Source: Arenicola marina (lineage: Eukaryota; Annelida; Polychaeta; Arenicolidae). From it: 64,000 nucleotides of DNA. Shown here in pieces: positions 1 to 63,495 of this stretch; within the stretch, counting starts at the first letter, position 1, and every line of letters starts with the position of its first letter. Location of the stretch: positions 15,135,911-15,199,910 of the forward strand of contig OZ025256.1 of assembly GCA_964019135.1 (NCBI GenBank). Reading direction: 5' to 3'. The notes under the pieces are model-generated. The model was not told where the DNA came from and made no database searches. It worked only from the letters and a program-made list of their open reading frames with translations. Made by a program: the position numbers and the translations under genes.

Positions 1-1056
1 CCACCCCCACCTACACCCCCACAGTCCCTGTCTCTAAGCTATCATCGCCGGCATGCCCGTCATCCGGGTGTGGCTGTCCCGCCGGGTCAGTGCCGCCACC
101 CCCACCTACACCCTCTCAGTCCCTGTCTCTAAGCTATCATCGCCGGCATGCCCGTCATCCGGGTGTGGCTGTCCCGCCAGGTCAGTGCCGCCACCCCCAC
201 CTACACCCCCACAGTCCCTGTCTCTAAGCTATCATCGCCGGCATGCCCGTCATCCGGGTGTGGCTGTCCCGCCAGGTCAGTGCCGCCACCCCCACCTACA
301 CCCCCTCAGTCCCTGTCTCTAAGCTATCATCGCCGGCATGCCCGTCATCCGGGTGTGGCTGTCCCGCCGGGTCAGTGCCGCCACCCCCACCTACACCCTC
401 TCAGTCCCTGTCTCTAAGCTATCATCGCCGGCATGCCCGTCATCCGGGTGTGGCTGTCCCGCCGGGTCAGTGCCGCCACCCCCACCTACACCCTCTCAGT
501 CCCTGTCTCTAAGCTATCATCGCCGGCATGCCCGTCATCCGGGTGTGGCTGTCCCGCCGGGTCAGTGCCGCCACCCCCACCTACACCCTCTCAGTCCCTG
601 TCTCTAAGCTATCATCGCCGGCATGCCCGTCATCCGGCTGTGGCTGTCCCGCCGGGTCAGTGCCGCCACCCCCACCTACACCCCATCAGTCCCTGTCTCT
701 AAGCTATCATCGCCGGCATGCCCGTCATCCGGGTGTGGCTGTCCCGCCGGGTCAGTGCCGCCACCCCCACCTACACCCTCTCAGTCCCTGTCTCTAAGCT
801 ATCATCGCCGGCATGCCCGTCATCCGGCTGTGGCTGTCCCGCCGGGTCAGTGCCGCCACCCCCACCTACACCCCATCAGTCCCTGTCTCTAAGCTATCAT
901 CGCCGGCATGCCCGTCATCCGGGTGTGGCTGTCCCGCCAGGTCAGTGCCACCACCCCCACCTACACCCCCTCAGTCCCTGTCTCTAAGCTATCATCGCCG
1001 GCATGCCCGTCATCCGGGTGTGGCTGTCCCGCCAGATCAGTGCCGCCACCCCCACC
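1..1056 (+). repeat. 95-bp minisatellite made of the NNT exon end plus splice donor
   Basis: Eleven near-identical 95-bp units; the ATGCCCGTCATCCGG core recurs at 53, 148, 243 and so on to 1003. Each unit holds 45 nt reading IIAGMPVIRVWLSRQ, followed by GTCAGTG and 50 nt of intron-like sequence. From memory, vertebrate NNT reads IIAGMPVLEVWKSKQ immediately before VIVMKR, and VIVMKR is what the next exon at 1125 encodes. The unit is therefore the end of the penultimate NNT exon plus its 5' splice site. A pyrimidine-rich stretch ending CTCTAAG precedes the exon-like part, so each unit also resembles a miniature exon. Some copies keep CAG/GTCAGT and others read CGG/GTCAGT. The true penultimate exon may lie before the window. 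Unit length is not a multiple of three. Confidence 0.9.
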
Positions 1057-1124: not shown

Positions 1125-1277
1125 GTGATTGTGATGAAGCGGACTCTGGGCGTGGGATACGCTGCCGTCGACAACCCCATCTTCTTCAAGGACAACTCCA
1201 GCATGTTGCTAGGCGACGCGAAGAAGACGTGCGACGCTCTGTTGGAGAAGACGCGGAGCTACTACAGCGACAAATAA
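1125..1277 (+). CDS. NNT: NAD(P) transhydrogenase, mitochondrial: last coding exon
   Basis: The final 50 codons and TAA stop of proton-translocating NAD(P)+ transhydrogenase, an inner mitochondrial membrane enzyme that uses the proton gradient to reduce NADP+ with NADH. The exon follows an AG at 1123-1124 and starts [20 protein letters not shown]. It continues with [15 protein letters not shown] and ends SYYSDK. This is the C-terminal NADP(H)-binding domain III, where the GYAAVDNP and GDAKKT segments are highly conserved. Only the C-terminus is in the window; the rest lies upstream. The preceding intron is filled by a minisatellite that copies the end of the previous exon. It is convergent with the DUF885 gene. 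Confidence 0.95.
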
Positions 1278-15100: not shown

Positions 15101-18100
15101 ACATCGGCAAACATCGGCGGGCTGTAGCCCTGATATTTTAAGCAGTCTTAATAAAACAAAGCACGAATAAAACACAGCAAAAGAAGTGGTGACATAGGTA
15201 AAATAAATAGAACATCGTATAATAAGCTTCGGCGATTTAGAGAAGACCTCGGTAAACATCGACAAACATCGGCGGGTGTCAGTGAAAGGGGAATCCCTAA
15301 CTCGTTACGTCATTCACAGGGAATCCTCAATTCGTGACGTCATTCACAGGGTATTTCCCCGAGAATGGCTCTTCGTGATAAATTCCGAATATTCAAAAAA
15401 AAAACATGGAGAAAACGTGTAAATAGTTCAGAAAACATTCGTGTAGATCATAATTATATCGGAAACCATTATATATAACCAGATTTATTGAAATGTGAGC
15501 CCAAGGCGTAAGTTACTGATAATTGGTGCGAAATAAGCTGCTTCAAAAAATATTTCTGAAATAACATTTTGAAGTTTCAGGACGTGTTTCTCGGGAAATT
15601 TGCACGGCTACCTATATTTTTCTTAATTTTTGTTACAAGAACTATGTCTTTAGAAGTTTTTAAACGTGGTTTGGTGTCAAGATTTTCATTTTTGATGAAA
15701 TTATAGCCAATTTTGTAAAGGTGATGATTTCGAATTTTGGCAAAAACGGTCCTGTTTTTGCATAACTGCACTTTATTATTGCCATTCTGTTATTTTTTGT
15801 GGCTACTATTTAAATTGTTGAATATTATTCCTGTATTGCACTAGGTTTAAGCTTTCCAAAGAGCTCTTACTGATGATAATGACTTAATATTGAGCTGAAT
15901 TGTAGCAAAATTACATATTCGTGGTAGGTGTCAAGTTTTGATCATTTTGTGAAATGGGGGTATACTTGGAAAATTGAGAATATTTTTTTAACGGGACGGT
16001 AAAGTATGCTAAAAAATCATCAGAAGGTGTGTTTTGGGGTATACTTTCATAAAATAATCACAAATACAGAGTTTTTTTTACCTTGCTATTATGGGTGGCT
16101 TACCTTAATGCTATTGTACTAGGTAACATGACCACCAACTCGTAATAATATGACAATAGCGCGAGTTTGCGGGGCGTTAGGCAATTTTATTGGCCCGATA
16201 TCAAGCTGTAGCAGCCCGCCAATTTTGATTATCGGTCCGAGGCCGCAAGGCCGAGGGCGGATAATGAAAATGAAGGGCCAATAAAATGCCTAACGCCATG
16301 CACAACTCGCGCTATTACTATTATTACGAGTTGAATCTAAATTTAAGGCGTTGACTTGTCTCTGCTTCTTTGGTTTAATTTCCGCATGCAAGGACCAAAG
16401 TAAAGCATTTTGGGACGGACTGTCCGCAAATCGCAAGCCTTTCGACATATAGTTGGCTAGTCGCCTTTTCATACCATATATATCGTTGCCAAGAAACATG
16501 CCACGTGCAACTAGGCATGTAAGCGGGCCATTTAAAGCTATAACTACAATTCTTTTGTGCGTGACGTCATGTTTCATTGCTCTATGCAGTGTCGCTATGA
16601 CAACGATTGTCGTTTGCATGGGCAGCAGGGCGGTTCGGGTCAGGATACAACATTTTAGCGGCCTTCAGATGTAATGCTATTATGCTAGTTACATGACATG
16701 ACTACCAACTCCTAATAATATTGAATAGCGCGTTTACACGATTTCTCATACTCACCTCACTCATTGCGGTGAAGAACGGGAAGTTGAAGGGAATAGCATA
16801 GTATCTGCGGTACTCCACCGGGAACTGAAACGGCGTCAGCTCTGCTTGCTGTAGCCGAGCTATTTCCATTGTTGCCTGATAGTGACACATGAACGTCTTA
16901 TGGTAATAACAATCAGTAACATTGGGACTGTTACTGGCCAAAAATAGTGCAACTGACACTGCCTGGCAGGAAACAAAAATCTTCAACAACCCGTGGAGAT
17001 TTATCAGCAGGATCAAGCCAAGTGGGCATGTGCGAAGTATAAAATACGATCATATGCCACTTGTCGGACACATTGGCGGGGCAGGGAGACGGTGGAGACA
17101 GGCAGGCCCCGTCGTTGGTATCCGTCTGTCCTCGCACTAGATGGTTTAGCAGTTTGGGGAATTTCATATTCTTAGAGAACTGATAAAATGGTGATATCAA
17201 GTTAAGTGTAACTTACTCAATAACATCTCAATAAAATGTACGCAAACGACTTAGAAGCACAGACTACGATGGAGGATTTGTCTTCAACAAGTGACGACCC
17301 CGTTGCTTTCAGTACGCGCCAAAAAGTAACAAAAATAATGTTGCCTATATCTAGAAATTGTCTATACATCCCTACGATCAAATGTATGATGTTCTACCGA
17401 CTCTGCTAGCCGACCTTTCCAATACGCCAGCTTGTGAACTCCAAATTTGACCCTGCGGTCCAATGTTTACTTTTTGTTGTAATAATTTGAGCTGTTAGCT
17501 GTGTAAATATCGGCGTCCCGACCCACCATGAGATGATGCCCTGGCTCTGCCTCGTGGAGGGTTAAAGCCGCCATGTTGAATTTCGGTCTGCAATGGTAAA
17601 GAAATACGGAATAGAAGAATCGAAACAGTGATTGGATATAATGTACAACTCACGATATATTTATGGGCCCACTTAAATGTTTTTAAATTGTATCGATTTA
17701 AACCTACTTTGGCAAGAGTCCGTACACGTTAGCGATGGAGTAGCCAGACCTGGATCCGTCTCGATATAAACTTACTTAGCCCGGTGTCCGTACACGTTAG
17801 CGACAGGGCAGTCAGACCTGGATCAGTCTCGATATAAACTTACTTAGTCTGGTGTCCGTACACGTTAGCGGTGGAGTAGCCAGACCTGGATCCGTATCGA
17901 TATAAACTTACTTAGCCTGGTGTCCGTACACGTTAGCGATGGAGTGGCCAGACCTGGATTCGTATCGATATAAACTTACTTAGCCTGGTGTCCGTACACG
18001 TTAGCGATGGAGTAGCCAGACCTGGATCCGTCTCGATATAAACTTACTTAGCCTGGTGTCCATACACGTTAGCGACAGAGTAGCCAGACCTGGATCCGTA

Positions 18101-21100
18101 TCGATATAAACTTACTTAGCCTGGTATCCGTACACGTTAACGATGGAGTAGCCAGACCTGGATCAGTATCGATATAAACTTACTTAGCCTGGTGTCCATA
18201 CACGTTAGCGACAGAGTAGCCAGACCTGGATCCGTCTCGTTATAAACTTACTTAGCCTGGTATCCGTACACGTTAGCGATGGAGTAGCCAGACCTGGATC
18301 CGTATCAATATAAACTTACTTAGCCTGGTGTCCGTACACGTTAGTGATGGAGTAGCCAGACCTGGATCAGTATCGATATAAACTTACTTAGCCTGGTGTC
18401 CATACACGTTAGCGACAGAGTAGCCAGACCTGGATCCGTCTCGTTATAAACTTACTTAGCCTGGTATCCGTACACGTTAGCGATGGAGTAGCCAGACCTG
18501 GATCCGTATCGATATAAACTTACTTAGCCTGGTTTCCGTACACGTTAGCGATGGAGTAGCCAGACCTGGATCCGTATCGATATAAACTTACTTAGCCTGG
18601 TTTCCGTACACGTTAGCGATGGAGTAGCCAGACCTGGATCCGACTCGATATAAACTTACTTAGCCTGGTTTCCGTACACGTTAGCGATGGAGTAGCCAGA
18701 CCTGGATCCGTATCGATATAAACTTACTTAGCCTGGTTTCCGTACACGTTAGCGATGGAGTAGCCAGACCTGGATCCGACTCGATATAAACTTACTTAGC
18801 CTGGTATCTGTACACGTTAGCGATGGAGTAGCCAGACCTGGATCCGTCTCGATATAAACTTACTTAGCCTGGTATCCGTACACGTTAGCGACGAAGAAGC
18901 CGGGTCTGGATCCGTCCCGGGCAGGGTTCGAATATCTCCCAGTGGGATTCTGACGGTTGCTGCTGGCTATCACTCTGTCAGGCAAATCAAACTAGTCTCA
19001 GTTATCACAAAGTTGCGAAAGAAAAGCAATTGTCCGAAAAACCCTACTAGACTTGCCATGTAAAGTTTGTTTAGACAACCTCGATCTTATTTGCATAAAG
19101 CACATGGTCACTGTTATGCAAGGTATAAATAACAGCATATTTTTATTATTTGTCCCATTATGTGGCATTTCTAACGAATTCCTGACAACTGAAATCAACC
19201 CGAGGTCAACATTAATATGTGAATTCGCTGTTGTGAACCTCGTAAAATGAATAAGTTTATATAAAAAAAAACTAAAATAAATTAGACAAAGCTATGGAAT
19301 TGCAAACGTTATCCACAGTTTTCGCATAGTTACTACAGCTTCTTAGTCTATTAATATATATTATGTAGCTTGACCTACACACAGGGGATGTCAAGGACAT
19401 TGTGAAACAGTTTATTCATATTCTTGTGGGTGGCCTTGACAATTTCCTGATATCCGGCAATCATTTCTTCCTAAAAGTAAAATATAGTAGAGAATTGTAT
19501 AATATTTAAATTTATATTGAGCACGGTCTTTATGTGAATGAGGAGGGGGTCACCCGTTCAGTCCTCTGATTAAATAACGGTGAGAGTTAGTTGGTTACCA
19601 TATAATTATAAAATAAATAACATATGTATATAAATCATTTGATTACCGGATAATTCTAGAAGGAGCCACATGTACTTACTCCTGATTGATAAAAATTCTC
19701 AGGTTGACTTAGTAGATGGTATTTGTAAGAGAGCAGGTCGCCATGGAAGCCATCACGCTCCTTTTCCTGCAGAACAAATCCCAAAAAATTTCAGTCGAAA
19801 ATAACTGGCTGGTTTGTATTTTAGTCAATTTGCTGAAAGGCCATTGAATATACGCGGACAATGAATGTTTTGGATAAAATAGGCCGACATTAGATCACTA
19901 AAAGCTGGGTTTCCAACTAGGGACATAATTCATCTTCAGTCAAGTATGTGTTCTACCACTGAGCCATGGAAGCTCCACCTCTATCCAGAATAGACCTCTT
20001 ACCTCTGTCATAAGCTCTGTAATTCTGGCGACTTCTTCCAGTCCAATTTGATGAACTTGCTCCGCAGACATATCCAGGGTGAGATGCCACTTGAGACACT
20101 CTCGGTAATACTGGCTCCCGCCATCCAGGGACCACACGCCGACATCCGGTCGCGTGTGCGGGGCGTATTCCTGGCATAGACACGTAGTAAGGTCACGTGG
20201 TCAATCACGTGATCAATCCCAGGATCGGTGACATGGTCAGTCACGTGGTCAGTCACGTGGTCAGACACACGGTCAACCACAAGATTAGTCATTGGGAAAT
20301 TGGGAAATAACGTGATAAGTCACTAGAGGAGTCATTGATCATTATGGCGTCCTGTGGCAGTTATATGTCCAGTAAAGTGGCCACTCATGTGGCGGTCACG
20401 TGATCGCGCGTCTAGTTATTGACGTGACCAGTCAGGGTGCAGTGGTCGTGTTATGGCATCAGTCGCGTGATCATTGGGTCAGTCACGCAGCCATGGCGTC
20501 AGTCACGTGGCCATGGCGTCAGTCACGTGGTCATGGCGTCAGTCACGTGGTCATGGCGTCAGTCACTCACGTGTTCATGGCGTCAGTCACGTAGTCATGG
20601 CGTCAGTCACGTGGTCATGGCGTCAGTCACGTGGTCATGGCGTCAGTCACGTGGTCATGGCGTCAGTCACTCACGTGTTCATGGCGTCAGTCACGTAGTC
20701 ATGGCGTCAGTCACGTGGTCATGGCGTCAGTCACGTGGTCATGGCGTCAGTCACGTGGTCATGGCGTCAGTCACTCACGTGTTCATGGCGTCAGTCACGT
20801 AGTCATGGCGTCAGTCACGTGGTCATGGCGTCAGTCACGTGGTCATGGCGTCAGTCACGTGGTCATGGCGTCAGTCACGTGGTCATGGCGTCAGTCACTC
20901 ACGTGTTCATGGCGTCAGTCACGTAGTCATGGCGTCAGTCACGTGGTCATGGCGTCAGTCCCGTGGTCATGGCGTCAGGCACTGGCCATGGCGTCAGACA
21001 CGTGGTCATGGCGTCAGTCCCGTGGTCATGGCGTCAGGCACTGGTCATGGCGTCAGTCCCGTGGCCATGCACGTGTAATGTAACGTATAGTCCTCAGTTA

Positions 21101-35100: not shown

Positions 35101-38100
35101 ATGTTGCGGATATCAAGCGGCTGGTCCGGAAGGGCTACCCTACGGCTGACCTCAGGACTAATGACACAATAGCCCTGAGGCACTTCATGAAGGGGCTCCC
35201 CGATCAGCAGATGGCCGTGGCTATCGGCATGAAGGAGCCACAGACGATCGAGCAGGCGCAGCAGGGGTATGAGGCGTACCGGAGTCTGGAGGACGTGGCG
35301 GGACGCGGACATAAGCTGCGCGCTGTGAAGGCCAGAAGTGACGAGAGTTACGTCACCGAGAGTAGGCTCTCGGACTTCGGTAATCGTCTCATGGATAACA
35401 TTGATGCCAAGCTGGACCGCCTGAGCGCGCTGCTGCAGGAGAGGGTTAGTCAACAGGATCGACCTAGCCGTCAGACATGGGCTGATCGACCGCGGGGTGG
35501 AGCCAGGCTGACGGAAGTGCGCTGCTTTGCCTGCCGGGAGCTCGGCCACTACGCGCGTTCCTGCCCGAGCTATGGCAATGGCGATGTGGCGCAGCCGGGG
35601 ACCCAAGCGTCTCAGCGCGACGTAGAGAGCACAGCGGATCAGGGAAACTAGAAGGGGCCGGCACTACCGGCCAGTCGTCGGCCCTTGTTGCGGAGGCGTG
35701 TGTAGAGAGGCACGAGTTGTGGTCGTCCTTCAGGGAAGTAGACGAGGTTACACCACTAAGGGCACGGAGGGTCGGCGTGTCACAAATATCGGAAACGCGG
35801 GCGTACGGCGCAGACGAGGCGCGTCCCGTCGGGAGAAGTGTTTTTGTTGTGTTGTTGATGTGGTGGTGTGGCGTCATGTCGTGGTTGAGATGTGGCGGCG
35901 ATGAGGGTGTGAGGAGTGGCGCCGAGGGAGGTGGCTGGGTGTGGCGGCTCTGTCGTTGGAGTCAGGTCAAGTGGCGGGGTATGAGGCGCAGGGAGCGCGA
36001 TGTGACACCCCGAGGACCCACTCCGGCCTTAGGTGGGAGATCCACCGCGGAAGAGCGCCACAAGCCGCGGAGTGAAGCGGCGCTGCTGAGCGACCGGGTT
36101 AAATGTCGGAGAGTGACGCGTGGGGAAAAGGGCGAAATGTCCGAGTACTCGCAGCGATCTTTTAGTGGAAGATTATCACTCGCGGCAGAGAAGGCACCGG
36201 TCAGCGATATGCCGAGAGGTCGAGTGACGTATGGGGATAAGGTACTGGCTGAGTTGCCCTGCGGTGGGTGCGATATTTGTGTGCGGAAACACAAACTGTG
36301 GTCGTCATTCAATGGAGTGGATGACGTGAAGCCGCGGGGAGCTCGAAGGGTCAGTGTGTCCCAGACATCGATGTCACAGGTCGGCAACGGCAAGGGGAAG
36401 CGCGCTGTGTGGGCTCACGTCATGTCTATGGTGCGGATTTGGCTGTGTTGCCTAGGTCGGTGGGTAGGACCCAGCGGCCGGAAGGCGAGAGATGGCCAAC
36501 AGGAGGATTGGATCAGTCAAGCCCGAAGGTGTTATGGATCCATTCGGCGGGGTTTGAGACGCATGAAGCGTGATGTGACACCCCGAGGATCGGCAGCAGC
36601 CTTTGGTGGGGGATCGGCCGAGGACGAGAGCCATCTACGGAAGCGGGATGACGCGGACCAGCGGTTAGAAGACCCAGGTCTGCCCTTAGGTCGGAGATCA
36701 CAGCCCAAGTCAGAGCGACTCGTACCGGTACAGGGTGCCAGGGAGGTGACGAGGGGGCTAGGCGGTCTCGCCTTCAAGCCGCTTCAACCGTGTCAAGGTC
36801 GGCGAGTGGCAGGGGGCAGACCCGCAAGGGGTAGTACTGCCGGGGGGCGAGGCCCCGGGGCGCCCAGGAATGTAGATGCCATGCGGCGGGGGACGCGAGA
36901 ACGAGTTCCACCCGACAGGCTACCGCGGGGAGGTCAAGGGTGCCAGAGGAGCTGCGAGGCTGCCACCGAGATTCGTGACTGACGTTATTCTCAAGCTGGA
37001 GAGCGGACAAAGGACCCTGCGGTGGATTGCATGCGTCTAAAGACATTAGTTAACTGAAATTTACTTTGAGTTGTGTTATTTTTAACGTCTATGAGTTGTC
37101 AAATGTAGAAACATGTCCGCAGGAGCGGCCATCCTGGTGGGAGATAGTGTGGTGAGTCCAGCTAGGGCTGGCTGGGGTAGGTGGGACACACCCCCACTCC
37201 CTCCCTCATACCCGCCTGGCCTGGCCAGGACGGACCTCTACTTTGAGGTCCGGACCTCTAGTTTGAGGTCCGGCTCCCAGTGGCTGGGGTGGGACACATT
37301 CCACCCCCTCACTCATACCCGCCTGGCTTGGCCAGGACGGACCCACAGTTGTGGGTCCCGCACGCTGTAGTCTGCGCGACTACCTCCCCCTCCTCCCTCA
37401 CCCGCCTGGCTGGGCCAGGACGGACCCACAGTTGTGGGTCCCGCACGCTGTAGTCTGCGCGACTACCTCCCCCCTCCCCCCGCCCTCTCTCATGACCGCC
37501 TGGCTTGGCCAGGACGGGCCCACACCACACGCTGTAGGGTGCGCGACTACCTCCACCCTCTCCCCCTACCCGCCGGAGTTGGCAAGGACCCTGACCTCTA
37601 GCTAAAGACGAGGGCCGGACCTACAACTGTAGGTCCGGACCTCTAGTTTTGGGTGGGGCTATCCCGTATTTAAGGGGCCGGAATCTGGTAGAAGGGGGGA
37701 GAAGAAGGAAAGGACTGACCGGGACTTATCGAATGGACTTATACTCGATGGATATGAAATGTGCATGCGGAATAAATACAAGAAAAGAGACCAATGCTGT
37801 TTGTTTCAATTGAATAAAGTAACCGGATGAAGATAATCGTGAACCCTCGACAGGGTTCTCCACAGTACACAATGTTCAGTACACATCCTTAGTACACAAT
37901 GTTCAGTACACATCCTTAGTACACAATGTTCAGTACACATCCTTAGTACACAATGTTCAGTACACATCCTTAGTACACAATGTTCAGTGCACATCCTTAG
38001 TACACAATCTTCAGTATACATCCTTAGCACACAACATTCAGTACACTTCCTTAATACACAATCTACAGTAAAAAACATCCTTAGTACACTATCGTTTACT

Positions 38101-45980: not shown

Positions 45981-48900
45981 ATGGAGAGTGTAAGGAACAA
46001 GGTGGTCTTAATTACAGGTGAGTATGCTGGTCTGATTGGGACACTGTTGAGGTCAGGCGCGAGTTCAGTTCCATTTATTTTTTATTTATTTTTTAAGTGA
46101 TTTAAAAAAATGTAAACATCATTTCTTTCACGAGGTTAACCTGAAATGGATTGCCATCTAGCAGAGTCACCTCAATAAATAAAACAACATATAATAACAT
46201 AAAATACATTCGTTACTTCTATTGTGATCATTTAAGATGGAATGGTTAAGCAAATAGCATTATATATGATAACTAGTCATATTGTCAGAATTATAATTGT
46301 ACAATAAGTTCGTGCCCTAATAATAATAATATTATTAATGAACATCGATGCTAAACAGTAAACCGACCAGAATGATCGATAATACGCTGGAACGGAATAC
46401 ATAGGGACAAGTTTTTCCGGTGAAAAATCATTTGATCCTTAGCGCAATAGCGCTTCACAGATATCCATGTTTGTGGGAATCGCGACTATTTCAGAAATAT
46501 TATTAAACATGATAGCCCTGGCTCCGTATGCTGGACAATGAATCACATACTGTGGCGTAATTTCTATGTTTGCATCACATCTTGAGCAGGCCGAGTTGTT
46601 AAGAATGCTATATTTATTTCGATGAGAGTTGAGGGCGCTTAACCTATTCGCAGCCGTCCATGGTTAACAGCTTCACAGCCCGAACCACTGGAATCGTAGA
46701 GTGACATGGGCGGGAAAGACATCGTAAGATGCGTTGTCAAAGAGAAAAGTGATAACGAATCATATGACCGTGGCATTCGATTCCAGTTATTATTAGTTGA
46801 TCGGGAAAACGATTTTTAAATTGCTGATGGCACCTTCTTTGGTTGGCTTTCTTCCGTGCATCAGGTAGCTTATTAGTATCTAGGGTAATGATCAGCGTCA
46901 TCAACATCGTCAAATAATTCTGTACCTATAGTTAATGGAGTTGTAAAATTGTATAATTAATGGAGGTAAAATTATTTTTAGGCCTTCCAGATCAGCCGCG
47001 GAATAATGCTAAATTATTCGCTGGTATGGCCGTTCTTTAGGATAAGTTTTAATTTACAATAATCCGCGCTGTGGTCTAGGCTATATACCGGCGGCAGTGT
47101 ACCGGTGTCCGTTACATGAGGCCCATTTCTTTGGCAGCCCGGGTATATCCCCAAGGTAACCCGAATACGCACATTACGCACCCGGGTCGGGTGCGCGCGC
47201 ATCCGTTCGGTATGCGAATGTATCCCTGTCAAAACAGCACGGCACATTCGGGAGACGACAACGGCTGATTGAAAAGTGACTGTCTAGGCTGGTTCCATTG
47301 CCCATAAATTAACCGGACATGGCTCGTGTGAACAATTCGTTGACATTCGGCGTAGCCCTACCGGCAGGTCCGGAAGAGGCTGCGTAACCGGGCGGCCTAC
47401 CGGTCCTTGCCCAAAGAAATGCGCCCATAGGCAGGGCGTCAGTTATTACCAGATCTAATATATACCCACCCCAGTAAACCTTGTTGGTTTATAATCAGAG
47501 ATCATTGAAATCACCCACAAAGACACAATTACATATGGATTTTGCATAAAGGCACATCTATGGCTTTATTCTCGATTTTATATAGCGAGCTAGGATTTTG
47601 GGGTCTGATGGTTAATTTCATAAGGTAATACAATGATTCGTATGTAGCACCTGGAGGTCTATAGCAATATATAGTCTATAGTATATAGCAATTGTTGTTT
47701 ATCTCAATGTTTAACCACACCCCGTACAATTTCTTTCGAGATCATAACGTCTTACAGAATGTAAATTATCCTTTACATCAATCGCAACACCCCGACCTCG
47801 CGTCACTCTATTACATCTAAATAATAATAATCGTTTATACTGCTATTCTATTAATCAGCGTCAGAAATACCGGTTTCACCAAACTCATGCTTCGTTATGT
47901 ATGCCTGGTAAATTTTATCTAGTTTGGTTAGTTGCTCACTGCAGGGTGCCGGGTCCCCCGAGCGGTCGCCCCTGATGCTCACCGCATATTTGGTTTGAGC
48001 TCTCCCTCCATTTGTGCAAAACAAAATTTAAATTTAAACTAAATTTGCCTAGGCAAAAGTGGCAAATATCTATCTCACTGTACCGCACTTTATTAACTTA
48101 ATTGACCCACTTCTGGCAATTCTGCTTTAGATCAGTTGACGGATTTGTATTATATGTCACACGGGTTCAACCCGGCTCGCATACACCGTTCCAGGCGGTC
48201 AATCATTCATTGACGTCACTTTTGCTTTTATCCAATCATGTAGCGAAAAAAGATCTTCCACGTGCGTTATGTCGGTCAAACAAGTCCGACAAACAAAGCA
48301 GCATGTCACTTTCTGTTCAGTTTCAGAGATGAGTACTTCTCACTTTTACCTACCGTAAGCTATGGTTGTCCTACTGTCCTAATTTCCTACTCACGATTAA
48401 CGCGTGGGCGGGGCTTAGCTCGGAGTGCGGAACTGTGCATTCGGCCATTCGCTTCTGTTTTTTATCAGGCGCCAGCGGGGGAATCGGAGCAGGGACAGCT
48501 TTGGAATTCGCCCGTCAGGGGGCGCGACTAGTACTGACCGGACGTGACGTCACTAAGCTGCAGGCTGTCACCGAAAAGTGTCGCGCTGTGGAATCAGGTG
48601 GCCCAGAAAGGGTAATAAAGTCGAAACCACCCAGTCACGTTGAATGCCATGTATTCTTCTATTCTATTCTATATTTCTATTCTTAAACGAGAAAGGTTTT
48701 GTTTTTCCCAGCATTAAAGGTTTTTGTTCGTCCCGGTATTAAGTAAAGCATTACTTTCATTTGTAGCTTTTATCCTGTTCATCCCATATGTTAAGAGGCC
48801 AAGTTTGGTTGGTATTTTCTATTATATGGGACTATCATCCCCAAGCAGTTTTCTGTACGCCAACTTGCCAGAGGTCATTGAAGGCTTCACCAGAAACCAA

Positions 48901-51900
48901 GCCGGCATAGGTTGGAGGATAGGTGTTTCAGACCCAAATCACACTAGATGGACACATGGTGTACACCAACAAAATACGGGTAGGTTACACTAGATGGACA
49001 CATTGTGTACACCAACAAATTACGGCCTCACAATACTTACGCATCTGTATATCATCAGGTTGTCTACGTCACGGCTGACGTCACAGTTGAGGCTGACCTT
49101 GACAATGTTGTCGAAGTAGCGATCCAAAATTTCGGGACAATCCACATCCTGGTGAGTATTGACGGTTACTTTTCCTGGTGCCATGCCAGAACAGCGCAGC
49201 ATGCATCCTCCCCACTGAAAGCTGCACGCACGCTTGAATTAATACTTTATCTATTTTTATGTATGTACGCTTTTAGTAATGCACGATTTTGAGTATCAAT
49301 TGATTTTGCAATATCCAAAACTTCTAATTTTATTCTAGGTGAATAACGCGGGTATACCAATGGTTGGAAACGTGACGGACGGGCCGGTGAAAGACCTTGA
49401 CAGGGCCATAGAGGTCAACGTGCGATCAGCCTTCATGCTGACACAGAAGGTCGTCCATCTTATCATAGAAAACAAAGGTAAAGTCAGTGTGGCTCTGTGT
49501 AGCGAACATTACAACGACATCAGCGGTATCTGAGTCTGAAACATCACGGCAGAATATACCGACATGCTGCACTTCTCATGTCCTTAGAGAATGTCGATAA
49601 AAAAAACTTTCTCTAATAAAATAATTATCGTATCCTGGCCGATGCCGTGGCTACGCCCCTCGATACCCCCTTTTTATTAGTATGTACTCCCCCCAGTTGC
49701 CCATATATTCTGAGTAAATAGGTGGTTATATATGACGACATTATTATACTATGGAAGCGAGTCAAGGAAAGCCGATGGATTTCGAATGTTAAAAATAACG
49801 AAATTGGTGTTGGGAAATGATGTTATTATAATAATCTTTTCTTTCTCGTGGTAATTGAATATGTGTTTTGTGATATGTCGAAAATCATAAAATATACTTC
49901 AACCTGTTGTCACGCTAGGCAATAGGTAAGAATAATGGACTCATATAATATAAAAGTGATATAGCAGCCAACGTTTATATTAGGAAAATAACTAACCACT
50001 TTCATCATTTGATTCCTTCCTTTCAGGCCATATTATCAATATCTCGAGCACAGCTGGGTTGCGAGCGGTAAGTGGACATAAATCTTGGTCATTAAACCGC
50101 CCATGATATTTGTGGAAAAGAGTAAAAAGGGGGACTAGATATGCGGAAAAGGTAAAATTAGTAAAAACGTAATTTTTGAGTTTGTGACTCCTGAGTGAAA
50201 ATGGTGCAAACGTAGTTTTTAATATAGATAATCTGAAAGCATTGTTTAAGAATGCCTGTTTCCTTTCAGAATTCTATGATGATTCCGTACTGTATCTCCA
50301 AGCGTGCTCTTGACATGATGACCAAGGCCTTAGCGCTGGGTTAGTCATGTGATACTAAAGTTATGACGGTTAGACATATTATGTATAAAGATGGAATACC
50401 AGAAAAGGTAAAAATCTTGGCAGCGGGGACAATGCGTGACATTTGATAATGCGTGACATTTTCCAATGAAAATAACAGTGTCTTTTTAAAGCACTATATT
50501 CTGTAATTTTTTTGTATTACCAACCTCTTCCCTATGTCCAATAAGTACACTTTGTCTTGAAATTAAATCCTGAAAGCCTGTGGGCTATCCGAAGAGAAGC
50601 CATTTGGTCACCGGAGCAGAAGTTGGTGGCCGGCTTTATATCACTACGCACCCGGTATATTGTGTGTGATGTGACTGCGGCTCGCTATCACGTCCGTGCG
50701 CGATATAAATAAACCGCGCAGCTTTATGTTGACATTGTTGTTTTCCGGACTCTCATAGAATATAAAATATATATGCATCATCATGTTGAGATACTTTTAG
50801 TCTTGATTCTAAAATGTAAAAAATTTAAGATGGCGAATGTAAGTATATTGCTTTAAAATGTAATGCAACACGGATATATGACATATCTATATTGTTCTCT
50901 GTCAAGTTAACTGATTAATGGATGATGCAATAACTAAATAATAAAATAATAATCATCTTTGGTTACTAACCATTTCAGAATTGGGTCCGCGCGGCGTTCA
51001 TGTCAACAGTGTGAAGTAAGTACTAATGTACGTTTGATATACATGTAACTTTTGCATAATATATATTGTGCATTGTACATTAACTATTAGTGTGACCTTC
51101 GTTTCCTGGAGTAACCGACGAAATCAGAAGCATAATTATATGTACGTAAGTAAAAAAAATTCCAATGACGCTTCCATATTTCATAATATACCCCCCCCCC
51201 CCCCAAATCCCTAAAAAAAGCCAACTTACAGATAGGATGAAAACCCATACTACGGCATTTCTTCGTGACATAGGCAGTGTGTCTCGGTAACAAATGTATT
51301 ATGCAATATCCTGGACATTAATTCTGTTCACATACCTATATGATTTGAATGTAGGACATGCCATATATAATCAGTGTTCATTTCTATTGAATACTATTGC
51401 CTTATTCTACCATATTATTTAGATATATAAATTCTAGATCAGTCATATCTGTGAATTTCTGGAAAGAGCCTTGAGGCTACGAGAGGAAAGAGACTAAATA
51501 AAGGACGCGCAATATCTTCTACGCGGTTTCATCTGAACAACGGCCGCTGAGTGCTTACTTATGTTATTAAATTACACTACGCAACTGAACAGTGTGTCGT
51601 TGCATTTTTGCAACGATTGTGTAAATGACAATCCTATTCTTGCAAAGCCACAGAAATGGCCAAAAGGGGAAAAAAATAGTCCTGTCAAAACATTTTAATT
51701 ATGTTGCCTGGTAGGCAATGTGTTTGCGGTGTTCAGGGAAGTAATAATTTTATTTGAACGTTGACTCCCATGAGCCTTTGCGCGGGGATTCGCGGACTCG
51801 CTCCCGACGCGCGTTCCCGCGCCACTTGCTCTAGAGGAACTGAAGGGAACAGACACACTGTTTGAATGCTGGAATCGCTTACGTTTTATCCCCGGCCACG

Positions 51901-54900
51901 ACACTCCCGGATCATTGGTTACTATGATTTAATAATAAAGGAACGAAAGATCACACCGTGTCCGTGGGTTAATTAGTCATAGAAGCTTACACCCACAACA
52001 TGCAGTCGGCAGGATCATCTGAAGCAAGCCAAGGTGTTAGTAACGCCGTGATCCGGGAGATTGGATAAAGGAGGATGTCTGATGACGAGGCCGTCACCGT
52101 GTCCGAGCTGCTGGCACGAGTCAAGCAGCTGCAGGCAGACCAAGCGAGGAGCGACGCCGCTCTTCGTGTACTTAAAGCCGACAGGCCTCATCCGCAGATA
52201 ATCCACGTCCCGCGTGACCGGAAGATATCGAAATACGGTGGATATGACGACTCCGAATACGATGTAGAGGACTTTGTAATTGACGTGAGACACGCCATTC
52301 AGGCCCGCGGCCTGACGGACGTAGAGGGCGTGGATTTCGTGCTGGCCCATCTGGAGGGCCCTGCCGGAAGGAGGTACTGCTCCGACCTTCGCCGATGCGT
52401 CTGGCTAGCGTCCTTGACGTACTGACGTCGGTTTTTGGGGAGACGCGCTCTGTTGCACATCTGATAAAGGCGCTATACGATCGCCGCCAACGGGAGGAAG
52501 AGTCCCTGCGGGCTTTTTCGTACGGTTTGTCCTCTTTAGTGACCAAGGTGAAAGGCCTGGATCCGAGCGGTCTTTCCAAGCCGGAGGTGGTGCTGCGCGA
52601 CCAGTTTGCGGACGGCGTGGGCGACCCTCACGTACGGCGCCACCTGAAGGGCGTCATCCGGGGGTGTCCGCAGAACACATTCCTTGTCCTTCGCGAAGAA
52701 GCCATCGCATACAGCGAGGAGGGCGGGGGAGTTTCGGCCACACATCATGCGGTCGAGTGCAACACCATTCGATTTTCGACGAGAACGCCACCCCCGGTGC
52801 AAGCCCCATCTTTGGCGGGGTATATGTCAGAGACTTCGGCATTTGTGATGGCTCCACGTGCTCAGGAGAAGGCGTTGCTGAGCCTGACTGAGATGATCCA
52901 GCAGATGGCGGCCACCCAGGCTGCCGCGTAGGCACACCTGGCGTCGAGTAACCCACACGGACTGTTGACGCCACCTGGCGGCCCAGAGACGCATCGGCGG
53001 GAAACCCGCCTTTGCTGCCATTGCGGGCAGGTTGGCCACCTGGCAGAGGTTCGTCGGCGGAAGAGCCAACCTTCACAGACGGCACAGCACTCGGAAAACT
53101 GCCACCTCGCGCCGCAATGAGCCCGGCGGTGACAACCGGGGAAGCAGGCTCGAGGAAGGCGGTCAGCCCATCAGGCAGTTTCCTTCGCAGGACGATCGGG
53201 GAGGGTCAAGGAGCCAGTGTTGGCCGGTGTTTTAATTGTAAACGTGCTGGTCACGTTGTCAGGGACTGCCCGTCGCATAGGCGCGTTCATAGAGGGGCAT
53301 GCTACAGGTGTGGCCAGCAAGGCCACTTGAAACGCGACTGCCCTAAACAGAACCAGCGGAAGTGTTACCGCTGTGGTAAGTCCGGCCACCTGCTTCGGAA
53401 CTGCACTAACAACAGAAGGTCACGCGGAGGTGGAAGGGAGACGCCGGTCAACACACGATGGGCTGGACCGGCTCAACAGGAGGACGACAGCGAGCGTCCC
53501 GGAGACGATAGAGCCCCAGAAGGGAAGAGACTGAAGCAGGTCAAACCGAAGTACGCCCGGGACCACCCACCCCCGTGGCCTGGCGCTGACGAGTCCGACG
53601 ACGACGAGACGGTCGTGGTCGCTGTCACGGGTCGCATGCCGGGAGGCCAACCGCCTGTTGCGCCGCCACCTGTCAACGGTGGTCCTGGCCAACCTGTCGG
53701 GGACGGGGAGCCGGCTAGGAGACTCCCGCTTATCGACGAGGCCGGAAGGCCGGAACGGCGGGCAGAGGTTACCCAGCCTGACCGGGTGGTTGACATCCCG
53801 ACCGGAGAGGACGAGCGGGATGACGGCGACGCGGACAGGGAGTCCAATACCCCACACCGCCAATTGTCCCCGGGGATACGGACCAATCTGTCGGACACGG
53901 GGAACCAGACAGGCGACCCCCGCTTAACGACGACGCCAGAACACGACCGCAGCGGGCAGAGGCTCACCGCCTGAACACGGCCCCACAGCAAGGGGACGAC
54001 CACGGAGAGAACGCCGCGGACACGAACGGGGAGCCTACGGTTGGTGCACGGCCGCAGGAAACGGCACTGCCAGCTCGCCGCTCACAGCGACGCACTGCGG
54101 GGCAGCACCGAAACCCGACCAACGTCCCTCGATCTGCCGCGATCAACCGGCAGGAGCCAAGGATTTGCGCCGTTGACCTGGCCGCTCGGCCTTTTCGGGA
54201 AACCCTTGCCCTATTATATTGAGTGAAATTATTTGTGTGTTTCATAGTATTATCGTTATTCTCATTGTTGTGGGGTAATGCCTTGTCATTGGGCGTGCGC
54301 TACGTCACAGAGGGCTGTGACCTAAAGCGGGGGAGAGTGTTGCCGGGTAGGCAATGTGTTTTCGGTGTTTAGGGAAGTAATAATGTTATTTGAACGTTGA
54401 CTCACATGGCCCTTTACGCGGGGATTCGCAGATTCGCTCCCGACGCGCGTTCCCGCGCCACTTGCTCCAGAGGAACTGAAGGGAACAGACACACTCTTTG
54501 AATACTGGAATCGCTTACGTTTTATCCCAGGCCACGACACTCCCGGACCATTGGTTACTGTGATTTAATAATAAAGGAACGAAAGATCACACCGTGTCCA
54601 TGGGTTAATTAGTCATAGAGGCTTACACCCACAACATTTACATATCTGTCAAGTCAGCCGCCATCTTTATCTGTATTGCTCGATTTTTACTGACTACTTT
54701 GTTCGTTACAGTCCAGGTGTAGTTGAAGACACGGAGATCTGGATCAAGGAAGGAGCCAACTGGCATCCGGATCGGCTAGCTCCGGTAAGGATTGTGTGGA
54801 AGAGGGCGGACTGTTCCCGGTCCCACGGCTGGTTCGACCCCCAGAATGCCCCCCCCCCCCCGAGTCGAAAACACATTATCGGCACTGTCTCACTGTTTCA

Positions 54901-57539: not shown

Positions 57540-60500
57540 CTAACACGCCACATCCACTTCAAACTGGTCGATGGCCAGAGGGAGGTTGGCCGGGTCTGTC
57601 AGGTAGGTCAGGTACTGACTGGACCCTTGGCTGTAGGTGTTAAACATGGCCGCCATCACGCCCTGGACGAAGTTCTTGTACTGCGGCAGGCCGGATTCAG
57701 GACCGGTCGGACAGCCCATGAGCCTCTGGCAAGCTGTGTGGTGCAATAGCAGAATCCAGAACAGTTATATCCTGGGAGACCTAATTGGGATCGGCTAGCT
57801 GTTAAAGTGTTTGCAATTTTATTTATGGGCACTTAGCTATAGCCTCTCTAACTAAAGACGCTGACGACAACAAGAGATTTGGCCATTGGTAATGCGTGTC
57901 TATGGCCGTTCTTCCATGTCAGGGCGAACCATTGTTTCAGCATAGCTCACGTATTACTCACGCCTAACGTTTACTACAATAATACATTTCGTGGGTTCTT
58001 ACATGGAAGACGGACCGTGTTAAGACCGTAGCTTTCGTAAGATATGCCTCAGCATGTTACCAGCCCCTCCGTACTTGTCCCAGGAAATATCAAATACGCA
58101 TTTGGTGTCCCTTATCACTCGCACACCTTCTAGTCAAGGTTATCCAGCGCAGCGACAAATAACATTGATTACGCTGAATCAAAATGTGTAATAGATGTAT
58201 ATGACATATTCTATATTTGAAAATTACGTTGATTGTATTTATGTATTGATTGGTAGAATGACCGTGTTTGCTCACCTTCCCAAGCTCCAGGGGTCAGAAT
58301 ATCACAATGGCCATAATTCTGAAAGCGACAGAAAGATATGATATGTATGAAGATTTTACTTATCTTGCACGGCAGGTTAACAATTGTAAATTGCAATTAT
58401 TTTATCATCTAAAAAGGATAACTTTTCTCACGACAGATTTGAACGGGATGTTTTTCCTCAGCGAAGGTTATGCTCCAAAGTTTGCCTGGTGGTTAATGGC
58501 TGTATCGGCCATGCCTTTACCTTGTGAAGTAACGACCAAGTTTAAATTTCACGATAAATATTAATACCTGGTGTTGTTAACTGAAAACAACAACATCTGT
58601 ATAAGGAATCAATACCAGCATAGACATATAACATAATCATTTCCAGCTAATAAAATACCCTTCAAACCTATACATCCTCAATACATCGATAATATACTTC
58701 CGGCTGCTCAAAACACGTCTAAAGCCCAAGCCGTTAAACCGCCGCTGCGCTGTAATGCGTAGTGATGCGTTGGCCTGCGTTTATAAATAGCCAAACGGTG
58801 GGCTTCTGGGGCTTGCACATGCACACCGCAGGAATACGCACATAAGGTTCTACGTTAGTCTAGGTCTGCCGGTTCTACGGTAGTCTAGGTCTGGGGGTTC
58901 TACGGTAGTCTAGGTCTGGGGCTTCTACGGTAGTGTAGGTCTGGCGGTTCTACGGTAGTCAAGGTCTGGCGGTTCAAAGGATATATATAATACGTACAGT
59001 CACATCCATAAGGATTCTGGGACAATCCCAACTGTTGTAGAACGCCCGGAAGTCGCCAAACTCGAAGATGCATGTGCCATTGCTCAGCTCCCCACCCATG
59101 AAGTATCCGGGCACAGTGTAAGGTAGAGGCATGACTTGTACCGTGCCACTGAAGGGCTCAAGGTTCGCCACAGCCTGAAGTACGTTAGGATAATGATTAT
59201 AACGTGCGGGTGCTGAATTAGTAGTTTGATTGATTGAATAATGTTTTTGGTATATCAAGGTCACAACATTAAGTATTCAACCAGCTATATCATTATTATA
59301 GGACATGCTTTGATGATGATGATGATTATAATAATAATAATAATGATAATAATAATAATATTAATAATAAAAATAAATAATGTTAATATTAACAGTGATA
59401 AAGCGAAGATGCAGGATAAAAAAGAGAAATTTCACATTAACAAAAATCATAATGTTAAGATACATAAAATAATTTCGTTACCAAGCGACCATCAACGATC
59501 AGCTCTTATTGTTCTAACATTATTATTGCGCTATTATTGTTCTAACATTATAATTGCGCTATTATTGTTCTAACATTATTATTGCGCTATTATTGTTCTA
59601 ACATTATTATTGCGCTATTGTTCTAACATTATTATTGCGCTCATTATTGTTCTAAAAGTGATAAACTCCTGCAATCCTCTAATAGAGGTCCAGAAAATTC
59701 AGATCGAGACTTTAACAATCTTAAAGGAACTTAGCTTTGAAAAATGGTGGTTTGGCAACAACGTGATTTACACTAGTTCAGTTTACATGTTGAACATTTT
59801 TGAGTGATATATATGTAAAGGATAATTAATGTGCAATAGCAAAAACTACTATTGATCACATGCTGCTCCATTATATCGTGGATAGTAGATACGATGGTGA
59901 AGACGGCGACTCAACCGTATCTTATCAACCAACACTTTTCTAAGCTTATATCCATCAGTTTTTTTTTATAAACGGTATATCTTTGGCGTCTAACCGGGTC
60001 GCCACCATAACAAAATATATGTCCTAACTATCGCGGCTGTCACAGGAAATCAACTCAGATTGTCCGTCTCATAGTCTCCAGGGATAGGCGCACCTGGATC
60101 CTCTGTTCGCTGAAGGGGTAAGCCACGATGAGATCCAGAATGTTGTCGCATCCGGCGGAGTTGCAGCCCATGGAGAGGTTATCCCAGGACGCCGTGAGTC
60201 CGATCTGCGCATCCAGGTTGGCCACCAGCTGCAGAGAGAAGTATCAGGATCAGGGTGGTCACCAGCTGCAGAGAGAAGTGTCAGGATCAGGTTGGCCACC
60301 AGCTGCAGAGAGAAGTGTCAGGATCAGGTTGGCCACCAGCTGCAGAGAGAAGTGTCGGGATCAGGTTGGCCACCAGCTGTAGAGAGAAGTGTCAGGATCA
60401 GGTTGGCCACCAGCTGTAGAGAGAAGTGCCAGGATGGTTGGCGCCACCAGCCGACCGACCGACGAGACAATGCTCACTGAACCATTCACGCCGACCGACC

Positions 60501-63495
60501 AGACAATGCTCACTGACCCATTCACACCGACCGACGAGACAATGCTCACTGACCCATTCACACCGACCGACCAGACAATGCTCACTGACCCATTCACACT
60601 GACCGACCAGACAGTGCTCACTGACCCATTCAGACTGACTGACCAGACAATGCTCACTGACCCATTCACACCGACCGACCAGACAATGCTCACTGACCCA
60701 TTCGCACCTACCGACCAGACAATGCTCACTGACCCATTCACACCTACTGACCAGACAATGCTCACTGACCCATTCACACCGACCGACCAGACAATGCTCA
60801 CTGACCCATTCACACCGACCGACCGGACAATGCTCACTGACCCATTCACACCGACCGACCAGACAATGCTCACTGACCCATTCCACGATGGCGATGAACT
60901 CGGGCACGTCAGACCCCGCGGTCCAAGGGGCGGCCACGATGTAGCCGTGGCTGGCTAGGGGGGCCAACACGTCGGCATAGAGACCGCCCGGGATGAGGCC
61001 ATGGAAACCGCCGATGAAGATGTTCATGGCGAAGGTGTCCTGGGTGCCAGCCGTGTCCGGGTAGTAGACTGTAGTCATGGAAATTAGACCATCATTAGAA
61101 CCAAAATATTTGTAAACAGTAATAATGGTTAGAATGGCACTCAAAATGACAATAGTCAATATAGTGATAATACTAATAACAGTGATACTAGTGATAATAG
61201 TGACAACAGTGATAATAATGATGATAGTGATAATTGTGATAATATTGATCATTGTGATAATAGTCCATAAAGTGATAATAGTGATAAAAGGAAGTAGTAA
61301 TGATAGTAAAAGTATTATTATTAAGAGTAATTGTACTAATAATAGTGATAGTGAAATCATAACAATAATAATGGTAATTACAGTAATAGTAATAACAGTA
61401 ATAATGGTAATTACAATAATAGTAATAATAATTGGAGACTTCTAACTATGCGATTTGCTATGCATAATGCTTTTCACTATTACTTTTGCTTCACATTTAA
61501 CGCATGTATTTTACTATCACACTTATGTTTCAGCATCTCAAACCGGTCCCGAAAATTACGTCGCAAACAAAGACAGATCTGAGTTTAGAGAATTCCTAAT
61601 AGTTCAATTCAAGAATAAAGATTCTTGTTTTATTTTTTGATCAAGCAAGCTGAACCTGGTTGGTTATTTCTCGCTCACCCCGGATAGGTACCGGGGCTCC
61701 ATCGCTGGTGTTGAACACCCTGACGGCGGTAGGGAGAGGGCCGGGCAGGTATGGATAACTCTCGTCGATATAGATTCCCTGACCTGTTAACACAAAACAC
61801 ACGTGGCATGATACGTACGTTATCAGATGTTATACAACGCCACGCCACCTGCTGATAAGACACCAGTTGATTAGAACATTTCTTCTGGGTTATCCAGAAC
61901 GAATAAAATACACTGCGATTTATTTATCTTGTGATCATTGAACTTTTGTAACAACGCAAATGGCAGTTGATAGCACTTCAGTATGATCTCAATATAGTGA
62001 GATGGTATAGAGTAGAGATAAGATGGTATAGGATATATCTTGTAACTAAAAGGACAATATAATGGCACTCGCAAAATGTACAAACAAAGAGTAGTAGCAT
62101 ATGAACGAGATTGTGTCACCCATAGGGTGAGGATAAAGAAAAATTAGGCTCATTTCCACTATAATGACCTGGGTCTTAACAATTGACCTTGACCCGTCAA
62201 AAACTAATCACATTATTTTGGAGCGAAAATCTAGTTTTACACGAAGTCTATGCTGCCTACGTCGCATAAGGAGTTTTTCTCTGTGATATTAGATAGGGAC
62301 TTTTAACATGGGAAACCCAACAGGAAAATGTTTCGCCCCCTAGTGGGAAAAGTAAAATATGAAGTATACTATTTTAATTAAGAAACAAGTAAAAAATAAA
62401 ACTAGGCGTCCTTTGCCCTTAATTCCATCTCGATATCTTCAATATTAAGCGTGTTATTAATTTATGTCGTATTTAATTATTTCAATTAATTATTTGACAA
62501 CCTACTTGTCTGTAGCCATTAAAATTGTGGTTTAATTTTCTTCCTTTATTGACACGCAATGCATGTAGCCCCCCAAAAAAAGACTAGATAAGTTGCATGA
62601 TGTTTGTGGGGAGTGGGCCGCAAATTTATGACGTACAGCACACCAAATAAACACAGCGATAAACGTTTTGAAAGTAATGAAATTCATATTAACCAAACAG
62701 TTATGATAAACTGCAACAACATTTGTCATTTACATAATTGGAAGGCTGCTCATGCATGAACCGTCCGTATGATTATGATTTCCAGGACTTTTCAAACCGC
62801 TTCAGAAGATTACGTTACCGCAAATATATATAAATGATTTATTCATTTTTGCGCTAATGTTCAACGAAAAGAGAGCGAGGTGATGTTGAGACAAATTGAT
62901 CAATGCGGGTACCTATCTGCGGTGTATAGCGGCGTTTGTGTGGAGTGCACTATCAACATTCGGCAACCATATATCGCAAAATCGACGTAGCTATAGTATA
63001 ATAATAGTAACAATTTTATTGATTCAGGAGCACTTTAGGCACAATGCCCATGGTATATACATACACTTCACATAAATACATACAAATCAATACATGCGGC
63101 AAGTCTTCTGAAGCCCTGAGGGCTGGTTTCATATAAAATTAGTAGTAGCTATATGCCTAGTAGGTGATCCACTACTGAACGAGTAACAATAATAATTTAA
63201 ATGTTCGGTGTAATTTCTTAAAACGCCTTTCCTAGGTCATCCTACTGGCAGCCGATATAAATGATAAAATATAATCCCCTGAACTTGCTTCGGGTCGTGA
63301 AAAGATGGAGACCTCAGCAAGATTCACATCTCTGAAACCCATTATACTCTGATGTCAAGACTAATTGACCTTGTTTTCGGAACATACTATATTAGTTTAA
63401 AAACAATGACAGATGAGAGCGGTGATGAGATGAGAAATGGATGTCTTACCCGACACGGCAGCAATGGCTACCAGAAGAACAAATATGGCGTCCAT
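57540..63495 (-). CDS. Secreted chlorophyllase-like alpha/beta hydrolase, 7 exons, 296 aa
   Basis: Exons in transcript order: 63495-63450, 61783-61679, 61068-60878, 60228-60094, 59174-58998, 58318-58276, 57733-57540. All splice GT-AG in one frame of 891 nt; the exon 5 donor could instead lie 6 nt earlier. MDAIFVLLVAIAAVSG is a signal peptide, so the product is probably secreted. VYYPDTAG, FIGGFHG, YADVLAPLASHGYIVAAPW, the nucleophile region MGCNSAGCD (S138) and NYGHCD (H222) follow the chlorophyllase order. E165 (NLEPFSG) sits where chlorophyllases carry the acidic triad residue, usually Asp in DPV. The nucleophile elbow reads C-N-S-A-G instead of G-x-S-x-G. Chlorophyllases cleave the phytol ester of chlorophyll; a role in digesting algal pigment is a guess, and another ester substrate is possible. 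Six or more cysteines suit an extracellular protein. Confidence 0.9.
58319..58997 (-). other. Chlorophyllase-like gene intron 5, with 25-bp repeats
   Basis: About five to six copies of a roughly 25-bp unit, GGTTCTACGGTAGTCTAGGT plus CTGGC, lie at about 58850-58975. They start about 20 nt inside the exon 5 donor. The rest is featureless. Confidence 0.75.
59175..60093 (-). other. Chlorophyllase-like gene intron 4, with AT-rich repeats
   Basis: Holds an (ATA/ATG)n-rich tract (about 59310-59390) and about five to six copies of a roughly 27-bp unit, TATTGTTCTAACATTATTAT plus TGCGCTA (about 59505-59650). No exon seen. Confidence 0.8.
60223..60446 (-). repeat. 37-bp minisatellite made of a splice acceptor plus exon 4 start
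   Basis: Seven copies at an exact 37-bp period (CACCAGC at 60223, 60260, 60297, 60334, 60371, 60408 and, degenerate, 60445). On the coding strand each unit reads CTTCTCTCTGCAG, then CTGGTGGCCAACCTG, then ATCCTGACA. That is a pyrimidine tract, AG and the first 15 nt of exon 4. The last copy in transcript order is the real exon 4. Two copies have TACAG instead of GCAG. 37 is not a multiple of three, so use of an upstream acceptor would shift the frame. Confidence 0.93.
60447..60886 (-). repeat. 36-bp minisatellite made of exon 3 end plus splice donor
   Basis: Twelve 36-bp copies. On the coding strand each reads GTGAATGG then GTCAGTGAGCATTGTCTGG and TCGGTCGGT. The exon 3 end is GTGGAATGG followed by GTCAGTGAG, so every unit repeats the 5' splice site with about 8 nt of exon. 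The array joins the exon directly and meets the 37-bp acceptor array at about 60446. 36 is a multiple of three and the exon frame stays open through the array, so use of a later donor would insert 12-residue repeats of VSEHCLVGRCEW type. Confidence 0.93.
61085..61437. repeat. Degenerate AT-rich (GTGATAATA)n tract
   Basis: Short motifs GTGATAATAGT and GTAATAATGGT fill the region just upstream of exon 3 in transcript direction (intron 2). Non-coding; hydrophobic Ile/Val/Met ORFs are artefacts. Confidence 0.85.
61784..63449 (-). other. Chlorophyllase-like gene intron 1
   Basis: A 1.67-kb AT-rich intron. On the minus strand, GGGCATTGTGCCTAAAGTGC followed by TCCTGAATCAATAAAATTGT (about 63005-63050) resembles a retroposon 3' end; low confidence. 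No exon seen. Confidence 0.45.

Follow-up and report, generated by a model that had tools for sequence, protein, structure and literature searches.

The third intron of a chlorophyllase-like gene of Arenicola marina consists almost entirely of tandem copies of its own two ends. Within the window (the whole 64-kb stretch of DNA analysed here) this intron, 649 bp long, runs from 60877 to 60229 on the minus strand, and it is occupied by a 36-bp donor array and a 37-bp acceptor array except for the 2 bp that separate them. The preliminary description of two abutting arrays with hardly any other intron sequence remaining is thereby upheld, as is its claim that both ends of one intron have been amplified, with differing periods. 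Our favoured explanation, which we consider likely, is that the two arrays are neighbouring mirage (exon-stuttering) minisatellites, the outcome of ordinary minisatellite growth that is tolerated where splicing hides the copies.

Both arrays were found by Tandem Repeats Finder, for which the reporting threshold is a score of 50. The donor array (60454..60883, minus strand; 11.9 copies, 94% matches, score 762) is built of 12 units that each join the last 6 bp of exon 3, GAATGG, to the first 30 bp of the intron, and the acceptor array (60214..60451, minus strand; 6.4 copies, 93% matches, score 395) is built of units that join the last 22 bp of the intron, with its pyrimidine tract and AG, to the first 15 bp of exon 4. 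The exon-end copy recurs in all 12 donor units at exact 36-bp steps, in keeping with the dozen donors first described, but the in-register GT (GTCAGT...) is kept in 11 of them, the innermost reading TGG/TTCAGT. A similar correction applies to the acceptors, which had been counted as seven: the exon start is present in seven copies, but the AGs number six, at an exact spacing of 37 bp (60414, 60377, 60340, 60303, 60266 and 60229), and the seventh exon-start copy, which adjoins the donor array, has no preceding AG. Donor units 3, 6 and 9 match the first unit at all 36 bases, and the innermost departs furthest from the consensus (4 differences, with 0 to 3 in the other 11). The innermost acceptor unit, with 2 differences, is tied with one other and is not clearly the most diverged. 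Motifs resembling CTRAY, the branch-point consensus, occur in 4 of the 6 acceptor units, the last among them.

Exon models were built from homology, frame and GT/AG. On the minus strand, exons 2 (61679..61783) and 5 (58998..59174) are placed by the open frame of the joined exons, exons 3 (60878..61068) and 4 (60094..60228) by frame and by Pfam and PDB alignments, and intron 3 (60229..60877), as the span between first donor and last acceptor, by a table of joined frames and the same alignments. Exons 2 to 5 form one open frame when joined. The product matches the Pfam family Chlorophyllase (PF07224; E 1.8e-7, 30.7 bits, cut-off 26) and a solved chlorophyllase (PDB 8fjd, E 2.8e-5), so that the name chlorophyllase-like given to the gene at the outset is well founded. 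One scan for prokaryotic relatives of the protein gave 67 pattern matches, of which none was confirmed.

Frame and homology both support the outermost sites of intron 3 as those that would be joined. When each of the 12 donors is joined to each of the six acceptors, 12 of the 72 products are open, all of them through the last acceptor (60229) and with any of the donors, and the remaining 60 run into a stop. Since 36 is divisible by three, the choice of donor is neutral with respect to frame, and inner donors, each of which would add 12 residues, are excluded by alignment alone. The protein made with the first donor and last acceptor aligns to PDB 8fjd without a gap over the exon 3/4 junction (IVEW/LVANLDAQI), with a 4-residue gap immediately before IVEW, and it aligns to PDB 2fx5 (E 0.0054) without a gap near the junction. 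Against Pfam it scores 28.8 bits as it stands, 26.6 with one extra array unit (a cost of 2.2 bits) and 22.5 with two, in which case the match stops near the insert. Homology thus favours the first donor, if mildly.

The sites themselves do little to explain such a choice. Under a small position matrix derived from 20 sites in the window, the 11 intact donors score equally (5.8), two GT sites inside the donor array exceed the first donor's 5.8 (6.5 at 60711 and 6.3 at 60743), and the six acceptors score from -2.5 to -0.7, with the last (-1.7) amid its five copies, three of which score equally low or lower. The matrix therefore gives no preference to the outermost sites, which are no stronger than their copies, and the earlier picture of many near-identical competing sites stands. 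In leave-one-out scoring the first donor is mid-range (5.8 within 2.7 to 9.3), and the last acceptor (-1.7) is the weakest of the 21 modelled acceptors, the other 20 of which score 3.0 to 10.7. A second GT found 4 bases past each donor (TCA/GTGAGC) was rejected as a candidate site, with a lower score (3.8) and a position that would break phase. Scanning for the first acceptor met would choose the wrong acceptor, and some unseen factor must therefore favour the last one. Folding that loops the arrays out is not indicated, as each of 20 dinucleotide shuffles of the intron folds no less well than the original (z +2.41). Because local site sequence cannot separate the copies, exon definition is perhaps at work, and we infer that it is exon context that decides between them.

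The two ends of the intron were probably amplified independently, because their units have no significant similarity. In the same orientation, the donor and acceptor units align with a score of 10.0, at the level of shuffled sequences (mean 10.1, P 0.60). When the acceptor unit is reverse-complemented, the donor unit scores 15.0 against it (shuffle mean 10.8, P 0.068, two orientations having been tried), a weak inverted resemblance between units (60214-60883) that extends over 27 columns with 2 gaps. The claim of independent amplification therefore holds as far as the same-orientation comparison goes and is left unproved by the inverted one; independence is the simpler reading, and on these alignments a shared origin through inversion is the less probable one.

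Intron 3 is not the only site of such repetition in the window. A DUF885 gene on the minus strand, with 11 modelled exons that encode 404 residues and match PF05960 (E 5.5e-64), carries a donor-junction array (17690..18915) of 18 units of 68 bp, each composed of 50 bp of the end of exon 10 and 18 bp of intron, between exon 10 (18864..18974), the end of which is the outermost array copy, and exon 11 of the gene model (17527..17587). The donors read GTAAGT in 17 of 18 units and GTAGGT in the other. Here the frame does discriminate among donors: it is kept by the first of the 18, and the remaining 17 lead to a stop. The joined protein aligns without a gap to PDB 3o0y across the junction at the exon 10 array. 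Of the 68 positions in the unit, 8 depart from the consensus in the copy that belongs to the real exon, and 8 and 7 do so in the two innermost units, with 0 to 4 differences in the other 15; diverged innermost units, in this array as in the chlorophyllase donor array, are what turnover within tandem arrays predicts. The same gene also contains a 30-bp array of 19 copies (24449-25028) that begins 6 bp into an intron, past the donor AAG/GTATAT, and leaves that donor uncovered.

The third gene, for the transhydrogenase NNT, has a donor-junction array at the very start of the window (1..1056, plus strand) with 95-bp units and 11 donor positions, 10 of which read GTCAGT and the innermost ATCAGT. 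This array extends past the window start and its source exon is therefore unseen, but its copies include the closing part of a conserved NNT exon: when a single copy is fused to the last exon (1125..1277, plus strand, stop codon included, placed by homology and frame), the product aligns without a gap to the solved transhydrogenase 1d4o (E 1.6e-27). When nine of the donors (181 to 941) are joined to the last exon, two of the products are free of stops, one of these being out of frame. Of the three donor arrays, two have an innermost copy without GT: that of NNT, at 1036 (ATCAGT), and that of the chlorophyllase-like gene, at 60481 (TTCAGT).

We propose that intron 3 reached its present form in steps. 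Slippage or unequal exchange would have set off local tandem duplication at the 5' end and, in what was most likely a separate event, at the 3' end; duplication would then have continued until the intron was little besides copies of its own ends. In the RNA, splicing would join the outermost donor to the outermost acceptor, the two sites that directly adjoin the bodies of the real exons, and array copies would be tolerated because splicing removes them all. Selection would maintain these two outermost copies and the reading frame, leaving the inner copies to drift.

Independent growth at both ends had been taken to imply a mechanism that duplicates splice junctions in their own right. Such a mechanism, directed at exon-intron boundaries and linked, for example, to transcription, R-loops or splicing, would preferentially duplicate splice sites, and the presence of four junction arrays in three genes in one 64-kb window speaks in its favour. 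Junction arrays occur in 3 of 19 modelled introns (10 in DUF885, 3 in the chlorophyllase-like gene, 5 in a short-chain dehydrogenase (SDR) gene and 1 in NNT), a count that includes an NNT intron noticed through its array. To set against this is the distribution of tandem repeats over the window as a whole. Removal of periods under 10 and of overlapping rows reduced 57 Tandem Repeats Finder rows to 38 arrays, and arrays with a period of at least 10 cover 16.2% of the window. The modelled junctions were those of the DUF885 and chlorophyllase-like genes and of one SDR gene (48469-51015, plus strand, modelled); NNT was not counted, its junction being off the window. Arrays span 3 of these 42 junctions, a set without the window's second SDR gene or its additional DUF885 exons, compared with a mean of 6.69 in 5000 circular shifts under a null that treats arrays as alike in age and size; 90% of the shifts reach at least 3, and 35 of the 38 arrays span no modelled junction. 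With the 17 strongest arrays the shift mean is 5.88, and 84% of shifts reach 3. The circular-shift test thus finds no excess of arrays at modelled junctions in this 64-kb window, and because arrays cover so much of the sequence yet span fewer junctions than the shifts give on average, no junction-specific process is needed.

The manner in which arrays meet exons also bears on such a process. All three arrays that touch a modelled exon cross an exon edge, intruding by 6, 15 and 52 bp, and in chicken more than 90% of copied exon pieces lie no more than one base from an exon border, according to the available text of PMC12954441. The chance that exon-touching arrays of these lengths intrude by at most 52 bp in total is 0.20, 0.32 and 0.08 when each is taken singly. 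Small intrusions suggest anchoring at exon edges, but selection against arrays within exons would yield the same edge-hugging pattern. Coding bases within arrays are likewise fewer than the random shifts predict (73 observed, with a shift mean of 377 for all arrays, P 0.041, and of 330 for the strong arrays, P 0.074); selection explains this deficit, and a junction-anchored process would too. We regard a junction-aimed process as unlikely; general minisatellite growth together with selection on coding sequence is enough.

A different possibility is that the donor array is used coding sequence, such that inner donors would add 12-residue repeats and give rise to a family of protein lengths. The 36-bp unit is indeed 12 stop-free codons, all 12 donors are in frame with the last acceptor, and a protein with one added unit still scores above the Pfam cut-off (26.6 against 26). 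With two added units, however, the Pfam match ends near the insert, and any insert would interrupt a stretch that is aligned to PDB 8fjd. Moreover, 4 of 11 distinct variants among the units are synonymous, where 24% would be expected without constraint, so that no coding selection is seen in what is admittedly a comparison of little power. On the plus strand, the three frames of the 36-bp array have 3, 4 and 2 of 11 variants synonymous, with 25-29% expected, and likewise give no sign of coding. We judge it very improbable that the array is coding sequence in use.

Tandem arrays are frequently mis-assembled. Assembly artefact, affecting the arrays or their copy numbers, is nonetheless the least probable of the alternatives and a highly improbable one, since the copies bear distinct substitutions and the same kind of array is found in three genes. 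An aberrantly assembled mirage is mentioned in the available text of the globin paper (PMC3087553), but repeats in PGBD5 were confirmed with new data (PMC3902484) and those in PHF8 with nanopore reads (PMC12954441), as the accessible portions of these papers state.

Mirage-type minisatellites, our preferred reading of intron 3, have precedents. Junction arrays have already been published as lancelet mirages and, in 2026, as exon stuttering in chicken, the avian form also going by the name sequence stuttering, and are a known but little-studied phenomenon. According to the available portions of two papers, amphioxus mirages occur in Adh3, the globins BflGb6 and BflGb9, troponin C and PGBD5 (PMC3087553, PMC3902484), the PGBD5 and troponin C examples coming from the 2013 PGBD5 paper (PMC3902484); they are minisatellite-like repeats that lie over an exon-intron boundary, 5' or 3', with copies of splice signals (PMC3087553, PMC3902484), have units of 10-160 bp (PMC3087553) and are reported to permit normal splicing in Adh3 and the globins (PMC3087553). 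The tandem repeats described here likewise span exon-intron boundaries and copy splice signals. Their units (36, 37, 68 and 95 bp) fall within the published range, their exon parts measure 6, 15 and 50 bp, with NNT copies that encode an exon end, and the splice signals are present in multiple copies (GT in 11 of 12 chlorophyllase donor units, AG in 6 of 6 acceptor units, GT in 18 of 18 DUF885 units and in 10 of 11 NNT units). They differ from amphioxus mirages, the 2002 Adh3 paper aside, in that amplification has affected the two boundaries of a single intron, with units unlike each other and hardly any other intron sequence left.

Exon stuttering in chicken, as reported in the available text of PMC12954441, affects 236 introns in 115 genes, with 190 of the 236 on dot chromosomes. 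GC-rich dot chromosomes carry most of the bird cases; the process is linked to high GC in that paper and described there as novel. Here too, exon edges with their donor or acceptor are tandemly copied through an intron, the exon itself being intact (in both the chlorophyllase-like and DUF885 genes), and two clusters can occupy one intron. In PHF8 intron 18, however, one of two independent clusters is exon-derived and the other purely intronic (PMC12954441, available text), whereas both clusters of our intron 3 are exon-derived; the avian exon pieces are also given there as 20-187 bp, compared with 6, 15 and 50 bp here. GC content is 44.7% over the window, 44.2% outside arrays and 47.9 to 66.3% in the four junction arrays. 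Because the window GC is moderate, unlike that of a GC-rich dot chromosome, we do not class these arrays as avian exon stuttering, though they work alike. In the available text of PMC12954441 the words mirage, lancelet, Branchiostoma, cephalochordate and Adh do not occur, and amphioxus occurs once, in a reference title.

Intron gain by tandem duplication, represented by the Rogers model (cited in the available text of PMC3087553) and by a potato RdRp case among the literature matches listed (PMC4974935), also creates extra splice sites in a gene. It is unlike the present case, in which an existing intron has been lengthened and no new intron is shown. The accessible portions of a serpin intron paper and a chaetognath genome paper contain no boundary arrays, and no further junction-array case appeared in the accessible text of the literature matches listed.

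Several other repeats and mobile-element remnants lie in the window. A LINE reading frame (4520-8353, minus strand; endonuclease, RVT_1 and zf-RVT) is located between DUF885 exon matches, and the same 21-bp minisatellite occurs on both sides of it (4491-4598 and 8865-10470), as if the element had inserted into the repeat or carried it. Blocks of repeats with 20-, 27- and 83-bp units (33206-33794 and 37231-38089) flank a frame at 34254-35651 that is gag-like as judged by eye, and the region 33206-38089 as a whole looks like an LTR element. A reading frame at 52952-53974 with three CCHC zinc knuckles is probably the gag of another retroelement. A scan against Rfam gave 0 matches. The second SDR gene is represented by a C-terminal piece at about 32193-32333 on the minus strand (PF13561, E 8.8e-9).

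It is possible to go further than the preferred reading of two mirage minisatellites, although we think the extension improbable. Mirages and bird exon stuttering may be one mutational process that is not bound to GC, that seeds at junctions and that is able to replace whole introns; in the present gene it would have turned an intron of about 50-60 bp (a 30-bp 5' unit plus a 22-bp 3' unit) into one of 649 bp, with the spliceosome choosing by exon context alone. At its least, the present case links two literatures, that of lancelet mirages and that of bird exon stuttering, and a mirage-type case at moderate window GC argues against high GC as a requirement. The present analysis contributes the intron made of arrays from both ends (again with the 2002 Adh3 paper aside), the use of reading frame and homology to identify the required copies, and the density of the arrays, with three genes in 64 kb that contain near-identical competing splice sites. 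Taken together, with an open frame obtained from 1 of 18 DUF885 donors and 1 of 6 chlorophyllase acceptors, these genes provide a naturally occurring test of which cues outside the local sequence mark a real splice site.
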